Source of the DNA: Stenotrophomonas maltophilia
GTDB taxonomy: Bacteria; Pseudomonadota; Gammaproteobacteria; Xanthomonadales; Xanthomonadaceae
Assembly: GCF_023518235.1 (NCBI RefSeq)
Contig: NZ_CP090423.1
Coordinates: forward strand, 3,161,001 to 3,225,000
Direction: 5' to 3'
Length of the DNA stretch: 64,000 nucleotides
Part shown: in pieces, positions 31,711 to 38,168 of the stretch
Layout of the letters: each line of letters starts with the position of its first letter
How positions within the stretch are numbered: the stretch's first letter is position 1
Notes under the pieces: generated by a model
What the model was told of the DNA's origin: nothing
The model's database searches: none
The model's input: only the letters and a program-made list of their open reading frames with translations
Position numbers and translations under genes: made by a program

Positions 31711-31769
31711 GGTTTCCCGCGAACGGCGCAGCCCCTCGTGGCTGGTCGCTCAACGCAACAGCCGTGGTT

Positions 31770-31873
31770 GGCCGGGCGGGGTGAGTTCGCGGGGGACGCC
31801 GTAAACCCGTCCTTGGGGGCTTGGCCGCGGCATCCATGCCGCGGACACCCCCGCGAACCCACCCCGCCCGGCC
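31770..31873 (-). repeat. two-loop ANGGA element, copy A
   Basis: The outer stem pairs 31770-31795 with 31848-31873 (25 of 26 positions). The single mismatch becomes a G-U pair in minus-strand RNA. Inside are a hairpin at 31825-31844 with loop ATGGAT and one at 31806-31817 with loop AAGGAC, both read on the minus strand. See copies B, C and D. Confidence 0.8.
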
Positions 31874-31959
31874 TCTGACAATGTCCGAGTGCGTCCACCA
31901 CGGAAAAGAAAAAAGAAGAGCAAAAGCAAAGGCAAAATCAGGTCGGCTGGCCGCTTTTT

Positions 31960-31984
31960 GTAGAGCCGAGCCCACGCTCGGCTG
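31960..31984 (+). repeat. SMAG palindrome
   Basis: GTAGAGCCGAGC-CCAC-GCTCGGCTGC, GTAG head with a perfect 7-bp stem, between element copies A and B. Confidence 0.75.
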
Positions 31985-32026
31985 CTCTTCGATCAGATTT
32001 CCAGTATTCGATTCCGATGCGGATTC

Positions 32027-32049
32027 ATCCACGCATGGCGTGGATCTAC
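32027..32049 (-). repeat. SMAG palindrome
   Basis: The same 23-bp sequence as 15422-15444, in the opposite orientation. Confidence 0.75.
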
Positions 32050-32050
32050 C

Positions 32051-32074
32051 GTGTCGACCAAGGTCGACACCTAC
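32051..32074 (-). repeat. SMAG-like palindrome in the leader of element copy B
   Basis: GTGTCGACCAAGGTCGACAC plus CTAC. The equivalent GTGTCGACTAGGGTCGACAC precedes copy D at 37818-37837. Confidence 0.7.
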
Positions 32075-32098
32075 CAGCAGCCGCCGGAACCTGTCGAA

Positions 32099-32200
32099 GG
32101 CGGGGCACTGTGGGTTTGCGGGGTGTGAGCCGCATGGATGCGGCGACCAAGCCCCCATGGATGGGTTCACGGCGGCCCCGCAAACCCGCAGTGCCCCGCC
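32099..32200 (+). repeat. two-loop ANGGA element, copy B
   Basis: The outer stem pairs 32099-32123 with 32176-32200 (25 bp, one position a U-G pair in plus-strand RNA). Hairpin 1 is GCCGCATGGATGCGGC at 32129-32144. Hairpin 2 is CCC-ATGGAT-GGG at 32154-32165. The leader is shared with copy D. A TGCAA-loop hairpin follows at 32283-32299. Confidence 0.82.
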
Positions 32201-32217
32201 ATCCCACAGTAAACCCG

Positions 32218-32270
32218 CTGTTGCTGTTGCTTCGGCTGTTGCTTCGGCTGTTGCTGTTGCTTCGGCTGTC
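32218..32270. repeat. short tandem tract, (GTTGCT/TCGGCT)n
   Basis: Alternating GTTGCT and TCGGCT hexamers, about eight units, between copy B and its trailing hairpin. No reading frame of interest. Confidence 0.7.
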
Positions 32271-37491: not shown

Positions 37492-37545
37492 CAGGACGGG
37501 GTCCAGGCGGGGTCGGCCCCATTGTGCACGAGGGCGGATTGTTGG

Positions 37546-37564
37546 GCAGGGCTTGCAGCCCTGC
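37546..37564 (-). repeat. TGCAA-loop hairpin following element copy C
   Basis: Minus strand GCAGGGCTGCAAGCCCTGC, identical to the hairpin after copy D. It lies 47 bp past the copy C stem. Confidence 0.7.
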
Positions 37565-37611
37565 ACCCGCAGAAGCCGGAGCAACATAAAAAAGCTGGCA
37601 TTCCGTGGGTT

Positions 37612-37713
37612 GGCGGGGTGGGTCCGGTTGCGGGGGACGCTGCAAGTACGTCCATGTAAGCTCGGTCGCCGCATCCATGCGGCTCACGCCCCCGCAACCG
37701 GACCCACCCCGCC
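37612..37713 (-). repeat. two-loop ANGGA element, copy C
   Basis: The outer stem pairs 37612-37636 with 37689-37713, 25 of 25 bp. On the minus strand, hairpin 1 is GCCGCATGGATGCGGC (37668-37683) and hairpin 2 is TAC-ATGGAC-GTA (37647-37658). The sequence ACATGGACGT matches the CsrA/RsmE-type ACANGGANGU consensus exactly. A T-run follows the element 3' stem by about 25 bp. Confidence 0.82.
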
Positions 37714-37749
37714 TTCGACAGTTGGCTGCGTTCTGTCAGGACAGCTATT

Positions 37750-37790
37750 GGGGTCAGATCCGTTTTCCGAAGGAGAACGGATCTGACCCC
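37750..37790. repeat. GGGGTC-type dispersed palindrome, copy 2
   Basis: GGGGTCAGATCCGTT and AACGGATCTGACCCC pair almost perfectly around a short loop, followed by ATTTTTATG. This is the best-preserved of three copies and could act as a terminator. Confidence 0.8.
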
Positions 37791-37817
37791 ATTTTTATGT
37801 ATCGATATCTGACAGAT

Positions 37818-37837
37818 GTGTCGACTAGGGTCGACAC
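37818..37837. repeat. SMAG-like palindrome in the leader of element copy D
   Basis: GTGTCGACTAGGGTCGACAC, the counterpart of 32051-32070 before copy B. Confidence 0.65.
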
Positions 37838-37874
37838 CCACCAACAGCCACCCGGAATCTGTCAGAGGTGGGAC

Positions 37875-37962
37875 GGTGTGGGTGGGCAGGACCGTTGGCG
37901 CCATGGATGGCGCCATCGAGCCCCCATGGACGGGTTTACGGCGTGTCCTGCCCACCCACACC
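37875..37962 (+). repeat. two-loop ANGGA element, copy D
   Basis: The outer stem pairs 37875-37892 with 37945-37962, 18 of 18 bp, with a sequence unlike the other copies. Hairpin 1 is GGCGCCATGGATGGCGCC (37897-37914). Hairpin 2 is CCC-ATGGAC-GGG (37923-37934). Confidence 0.82.
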
Positions 37963-38023
37963 GCCCCGCCATCCCACGGATAGCCTGCTTTTGACGTTGA
38001 CGTTGCCCTGGCTTGAAGCAGGT

Positions 38024-38042
38024 GCAGGGCTGCAAGCCCTGC
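38024..38042 (+). repeat. TGCAA-loop hairpin following element copy D
   Basis: GCAGGGCTGCAAGCCCTGC, 61 bp past the copy D stem. It matches the hairpin after copy C base for base. Confidence 0.7.
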
Positions 38043-38168
38043 CGAAACCCTCCCCACCCATGACTGCAGTCACTTGCCCGGACGCCCCGCGCTGGCGAAA
38101 GTCGAGCAGTTGACGTGATCGGTCCGGCGCGTTGCCAACCGCGCGCAAGCGAGAGAGAGAGAAACGCT

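Follow-up and report, generated by a model that had tools for sequence, protein, structure and literature searches.

A dispersed two-hairpin repeat of Stenotrophomonas maltophilia with ANGGA loops of the RsmA/CsrA type

Two divergent pairs in the window

Four copies of a structured element lie in the window, by which we mean the whole 64-kb stretch of Stenotrophomonas maltophilia DNA analysed here, and they are arranged as two divergent pairs. Copy A (31770..31873, minus strand) has an outer stem of 26 positions per side that encloses hairpin 1, with the loop ATGGAT (31832..31837, minus), and hairpin 2, with the loop AAGGAC (31809..31814, minus). Its partner, copy B (32099..32200, plus strand), is built alike, with 25 outer-stem positions and with ATGGAT in hairpin 1 (32134..32139, plus) as well as in hairpin 2 (32157..32162, plus). 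In the other pair, copy C (37612..37713, minus strand) has 25 outer-stem positions, ATGGAT in hairpin 1 (37673..37678, minus) and ATGGAC, within ACATGGACGT, in hairpin 2 (37650..37655, minus), and copy D (37867..37970, plus strand) has 26 positions, ATGGAT in hairpin 1 (37903..37908, plus) and ATGGAC in hairpin 2 (37926..37931, plus), all loops being read directly from the sequence. The covariance model R1, introduced below, matches the copies at 31765-31877 (A, 125.6 bits), 32095-32205 (B, 108.2 bits), 37607-37718 (C, 105.7 bits) and 37863-37975 (D, 128.8 bits). A preliminary description of this DNA had named four copies with eight ANGGAY loops, each closed by a C-G pair, and the letters confirm both points, with the element strand being minus for A and C and plus for B and D. 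Its limits for A, B and C equal the measured outer stems, and only those for D have to be moved, by a stem that runs about 8 bases further on each side.

The A/B spacer (31874..32098) contains REP-type palindromes, and the C/D spacer (37714..37866) contains one such palindrome together with another that begins GGGGTCAGATCCGTTTTCC. This latter palindrome (37749-37791) runs from GGGGTCAGATCCGTTTTCC to GGAGAACGGATCTGACCCC with a T tail and recurs in many pair spacers of the genome; at its start it agrees with the GGGGWSAS terminal repeats reported for tyrosine transposases, families of which are described in S. maltophilia (PMC3733652). The C/D cassette is edged by inverted GCAGGGCTGCAAGCCCTGC-type palindromes at 37545-37567 and 38020-38043, and on its right lies a GTTGACGTTGACG minisatellite, which gives the cassette a roughly symmetric layout. 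The element is not a plain terminator: the scan gave one terminator-like site in each of the A/B and C/D regions (32233-32250 and the palindrome 37749-37791), about the level of shuffled sequence (means 0.6 and 0.7), and neither is an element copy. Matches to microRNA and VA families all fell below cut-off and were taken as chance matches to long hairpins. A simple scan found no sigma-70-like promoter beside A/B or C/D.

All eight folds (four copies, both strands) are more stable than 200 shuffles, with z from -5.46 to -9.74. The common fold drawn in the preliminary description holds by covariation; as a lowest-energy fold of single sequences it does not always appear, since on the element strand A and D form hairpin 2 around an 8-base loop, and other inner folds are preferred by B and C. 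The six-base register of hairpin 2 is adopted here because covariation, and not single-sequence energy, supports it.

A family of more than one hundred copies

A strict sequence pattern finds 64 copies genome-wide and none in a reversed control. The model R1, for which 32 of the 33 distinct copies of the same genome served as seeds (one degenerate copy was left out), returned 139 matches, from which 13 antisense shadows were removed by hand, leaving at least 126 copies in the 4.92-Mb genome, a lower bound with 150 of 5485 candidates scored. Of these, 117 score at least 79 bits, and the 9 that score below 53 bits look decayed or interrupted. The element described as four-copy has four copies inside the window and, with these included, at least 126 in the genome as a whole. 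These copies fall at 76 sites, and the 50 two-copy clusters are almost uniform in layout, with 48 minus-plus, one minus-minus, one plus-plus and no plus-minus. The divergent pairs, whose 5' ends point inward, form intergenic cassettes, whose spacers in many cases contain the GGGGTCAGATCCG palindrome or palindromes of the SMAG type. Home-made gene calls place convergent genes around 31 of the 76 sites, codirectional genes around 36 and divergent genes around 9. Neighbours less than 1 kb apart in the loci of other genomes (n=28) comprise 16 minus-plus, 7 minus-minus, 4 plus-plus and one plus-minus pair, of which 5 of the 7 minus-minus pairs belong to one tandem array and 2 of the 16 minus-plus pairs come from other S. 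maltophilia strains. The family is a dispersed and probably mobile repeat of over 100 copies, and not a pair of small-RNA genes.

Some arrangements depart from this picture of single copies and pairs. At one locus of another genome (L201 in G581), six copies form a direct tandem array with a period of about 227 bp. Elsewhere the loop of hairpin 2 is split by a repeat of about 105-110 bp that starts with GGTGAGG (loci L230, L231 and L238, and near 2574353 and 3741667 in the genome of the window), and because some copies are interrupted at just this place, a second dispersed element seems to use the hairpin-2 loop as its target.

The outer stem has 25-28 positions in 102 of the 120 better own-genome copies, and its sequence varies freely with the arms remaining matched. 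It closes a three-way junction with the two hairpins, both of them capped by an ANGGAY hexaloop on a closing C-G pair. A five-base bulge, UUYAC (CUUGC in some copies), is conserved in hairpin 2, and at the base of hairpin 1 tandem G-A stands in for Watson-Crick pairs in roughly 30% of the copies of this genome. Standard pairs fill 94.0% of the pair cells in the seed set from this genome, where covariation scores 0.40 and shuffles give 0.12. In an alignment of 28 diverse sequences (21 from other genera and 7 own, taken from 35 listed) the score rises to 0.90, where shuffles reach 0.19 and slid partners no more than 0.15, and changes on both sides are seen at all 17 outer pairs and at 2 of the 3 upper pairs of hairpin 2. 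Covariation thus gives strong backing to the predicted outer stem, hairpin 1 and hairpin 2.

The pairs also carry information on which strand folds. The outer-stem cells of the 120 better own copies hold 2815 Watson-Crick pairs, 80 G-U, 30 A-C and 31 others, counted under a rule symmetric in G-U and A-C, and 70 G-U stand against 29 A-C when each distinct context is counted once. The corresponding figures are 56 to 7 in 75 copies from other genera and 130 to 23 in the pooled alignments A5 and A6, both obtained from alignments fitted by a model that prefers G-U, which is why the wobble argument rests on the symmetric own-genome count. A process that treats both DNA strands alike would give G-U and A-C equally; the bias therefore points to RNA or to single-stranded DNA of one strand, and we are nearly certain that it is the ANGGAY strand that folds, in one or other of these forms.

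The arms themselves are diverse. Among own copies there are 96 distinct arms, a figure that includes some of unequal length and a few whose stem has collapsed (7 of 120 have fewer than 21 positions). Outer stems might have been acquired from hairpins at the target: in 346 pairs of copies with an identical core, loops left out, the arms differ at 0-13 of 20 bases, while the equal scores of several copies in one genome (G288) suggest that arms can travel with the element. Within divergent pairs, near-identical arms are found in none of 42 pairs, against 4.1 expected (shuffle p 0.0045), and the mean arm difference of 9.4 of 20 bases, against 8.8, is not significantly raised (p 0.13).

R1 is positive in 23 of 41 relatives (best 92 candidates scored per genome) and in 65 of 369 genomes of the class, or 57 of 271 genera (best 10 scored). 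Scored copies range from none to at least 92 within a single genus, and five species of that genus (G004, G007, G024, G026 and G032) have no R1 match among their best 92 candidates each. G004 gave two weak matches to the Rfam family RF01731; it is the one of the five that was included in the CsrA search, and it has CsrA, so that the repeat is dispensable. A fixed pattern found the element, among the matches listed, in Marinobacter, Rheinheimera, Shewanella, Halopseudomonas and Methylotuvimicrobium.

At the C/D locus the matched flanks are 692 bp apart in the query and 125-162 bp apart in nine relatives, and no copy is present in any of these nine short-gap relatives. Because they lack the cassette at the orthologous place, the cassette has spread recently or is moving. 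Other repeats flank it, and its junction is unlike what the empty sites show. Copy C is intact in all four filled relatives read; D is intact only in G005. In G008 and G010 another repeat interrupts it, and in G009 (locus L229) its place is taken by a long run of G that is probably a sequencing or assembly failure at a stable hairpin. At A/B, among seven relatives read, B is intact in G010, A is intact and B interrupted in G025, G005 keeps a truncated remnant, and the other four have no copy detected by the loop-masked model R2 described below. Carriage on plasmids or phages was considered and rejected, with copy D unmatched in 72,556 plasmid and 50,697 phage records, and so was the RAYT/Y1 transposase as the mover, whose gene counts do not track the element: G004, G007 and G032 have the gene and no element, and G024 and G026 have neither.

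Loop conservation, CsrA and gene orientation

Both loops read ANGGAY in 107 of the 126 own copies and ANGGA in 113, where a random hexamer at a G+C of 0.66 would be ANGGAY with probability 0.0016. In hairpin 1 the loop is ATGGAT in 118 of 126 copies. That of hairpin 2 retains A and GGA, with Y in most cases, and has T63, G34, A19 and C4 at its second base (n=120). The R1 seeds had been picked by loop pattern, so that a fair examination of the loops is given by R2, rebuilt with both loops masked to N and run against 398 genomes of the phylum (best 12 candidates scored per genome). It was positive in 22 of the 398, all of the same genus or class. The loops were read in 75 distinct copies, which come from 11 other genera (18 genomes), one of the 75 being also a training sequence. 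ANGGA occupies the hairpin-2 loop in 74 of 75 and the hairpin-1 loop in 68 of 75, counts made by eye that include longer and shorter loops (a strict octamer script gives 73 and 54), and GGA is present in 74 and 73, respectively; the exceptions at hairpin 1 include a five-base AGGAN loop in 5 of 75 and a loop without GGA in 2 of 75. At the N position all four bases occur in both loops, as expected of a CsrA-type site. The loops of alignment A6, whose copies were picked by a pattern with ANGGA, were not counted.

Conservation of the loops through search bias alone was rejected on these figures, and they answer the refutation proposed with the preliminary description, namely that the loops would lose ANGGA in a wider alignment: with the loops masked, ANGGA is kept. 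The motif ACANGGANGU cited in that description occurs in 54 of the 75 other-genus copies and in 39 of the 120 from this genome. RNAs that sequester CsrA/RsmA present more than one GGA motif in their hairpin loops, and the element has two per copy; their distance of 23 nt is suited to a CsrA dimer. The loops have probably been selected as a CsrA/RsmA-type site. The idea of an RsmA/CsrA decoy survives in part, as a strand-specific fold with two CsrA/RsmA-type GGA hexaloops, and its bearer is a dispersed repeat rather than a pair of small-RNA genes.

A single CsrA/RsmA match is present in the genome of the window. Across the class, CsrA (PF02599) is found in 313 of 369 genomes, that is, in 60 of 65 with the element (read by eye) and in 253 of 304 without it (Fisher p 0.085, not significant), and in good assemblies in 55 of 56 against 225 of 258 (p 0.015), both comparisons being confounded by kinship; the well-assembled element genome without a CsrA match is G235. 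Orientation relative to genes gives no consistent signal: own copies that stand singly and are flanked by codirectional genes have the sense orientation in 10 of 13 cases, judged by eye, and this fails in the wider loci, mostly from other genera, where 15 are sense and 19 antisense under crude gene calls that left 38 of 100 copies unclassed. A consistent sense orientation was therefore rejected.

Explanations and known relatives

The copies belong to a family of dispersed non-coding repeats akin to YPAL and TwoAYGGAY, whose folded strand likely works as RNA, made mainly by read-through from neighbouring genes or from unrecognised promoters, and whose two loops likely bind an RsmA/CsrA dimer. 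That a dispersed repeat has an RNA fold whose loops bind RsmA/CsrA is the best explanation we can offer and a reasonably probable one; the pattern supports the predicted RsmA binding well, and binding in vivo is likewise rather probable. What such binding might achieve is less clear. RsmA could be titrated genome-wide, or brought to the transcripts that bear copies and so affect their stability or processing, or both, and the long stem might also serve as a substrate of RNase III. That titration is the main effect is a tentative suggestion, and a decoy role is a guess. The repeat may, at a stretch, act as a distributed RsmA/CsrA sponge, with over 100 copies, two GGA hairpins in each, and divergent pairs in which a read-through transcript from either side would possibly carry one sense copy. 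Copy number, rather than a dedicated small RNA, could then conceivably set the capacity for titration, from none found to more than 90 between species of one genus. What probability remains goes to transposition without an RNA role and to the stem acting by itself.

The element could instead be a mobile repeat at the level of DNA, like a MITE, with hairpins and ANGGA loops as transposase sites on one DNA strand and any RNA role incidental. High copy number with patchy occurrence inside one genus, the C/D cassette absent from all short-gap relatives read, divergent doublets that resemble REP doublets, pair members that are never near-identical in their arms and the target duplications reported for YPAL (PMC2229807) all fit such an origin, and single-stranded DNA of one polarity would yield the same wobble bias. 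We nevertheless think it unlikely as the whole account: what is conserved in the loops is the CsrA consensus, including the freedom at N, copy D is without a match in the plasmid and phage records, and Y1 transposase counts do not follow the element. If instead the long stem alone stabilised or processed 3' ends or blocked read-through, as a boundary hairpin of the REP/BIME type with irrelevant loops, the excess of convergent sites would be explained, 31 of 76 where the adjacent gene pairs of the fetched regions give 61 of 396 (home-made gene calls; the 396 include the sites, and Fisher p is 7e-10 after their subtraction), and effects on mRNA stability have been attributed to MITEs such as ERIC and YPAL (PMC2229807). 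A stem alone, however, leaves ANGGA in both loops across 11 genera unexplained when outer-stem positions all vary, and C/D lies between divergent genes, which makes this distinctly improbable.

RNA loops that bind some partner other than CsrA, be it a different protein, an RNA of complementary sequence or the partner copy's antisense loops, would account for conserved bulge and junction bases beyond the needs of a CsrA site and for pair members that are mutually antisense in a read-through transcript. The freedom at N and Y fits CsrA and would break strict loop-loop pairing, and the spacing of the two sites suits the CsrA dimer; such a partner is very unlikely. Should RsmA/CsrA titration by the repeat prove true, the genomic load of a repeat could tune a major regulator and tie mobile repeats to post-transcriptional control, a question that comparison of species can test because the range of copy number is so wide within one genus. 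Even without it, a widespread structured repeat has been missed by Rfam thresholds: at gathering, neither RF01731 nor RF02770 was reported in any of the 18 model-positive 8-kb stretches (of 80 given).

Xanthomonas is a genus related to Stenotrophomonas. From it comes RsmU, an RNA derived from an mRNA 3'-UTR that was tested and sequesters RsmA, from a single locus and described as limited to Xanthomonas, where no CsrB/RsmXYZ homologue is reported (PMC7694677); RsmU is a precedent for the CsrA-type reading. Alcanivorax RNAs (PMC9788540) were set aside as different CsrA RNAs, and no repeat was seen there. The SMAG/GTAG REP dimers of S. maltophilia are likewise dispersed intergenic inverted doublets, in part heterodimers (PMC3733652); REPs differ in being 20-40 bp long with a GTAG tag, whereas this element has about 100 nt and two inner hairpins, and its 5' flank, with a consensus near C.GgAA.CTGTCgaaGG, has no GTAG.

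Closer relatives carry Rfam names. TwoAYGGAY (RF01731; named in PMC2864571) has two hairpins with A-Y-GGA-Y loops inside an outer stem, differing in that the second loop base here is N and not Y; its binding by CsrA was predicted in 2014 with Clostridia in mind (PMC4333381). The best RF01731 match in this genome reaches 39.6 bits against a cut-off of 43, with none in the window at gathering, and the sub-threshold matches all fall on model-found copies (5 of 5), on the same strand and at full length. Loci L031 and L032, from two other families of the order, give RF01731 hits above cut-off that R2 does not recognise; these are relatives of another subtype, perhaps a second one of TwoAYGGAY. One hit of this type lies about 370 bp after an RNase P RNA. 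Ysr224 (RF02770), listed among the most abundant annotated small RNAs (PMC9029176), gives 58 matches at E <= 0.001, the best at 41.1 bits and below the cut-off of 70, and all 58 lie on copies and on the opposite strand, for which reason the Ysr224 loops read UCC.

The repeat is not new in kind: its core is that of YPAL/RU-2, it is antisense to Ysr224 and it overlaps TwoAYGGAY. The Yersinia repeat YPAL/RU-2 has long been known (PMC2759123, PMC2229807) and is reported to make target duplications, of 3-26 bp, on insertion. A literature search gave no paper with both words YPAL and CsrA. One device may recur across Gammaproteobacteria as YPAL, TwoAYGGAY, the antisense Ysr224 and the Stenotrophomonas repeat, a tentative unification, and the three separate names YPAL/RU-2, Ysr224 and TwoAYGGAY merit joint study. 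When the printed 168-nt RU-2 sequence was folded and compared by eye, its core had the same hairpin 1 (loop AAGGAT), linker, hairpin 2 of the form TAC-ATGGAT-GTA, bulge TTTAC, GGCG and closing stem. RU-2 differs from the Stenotrophomonas repeat in that its linker is longer by one base and its outer arms are less regular, and like the present family YPAL/RU-2 is a dispersed intergenic repeat with empty sites.
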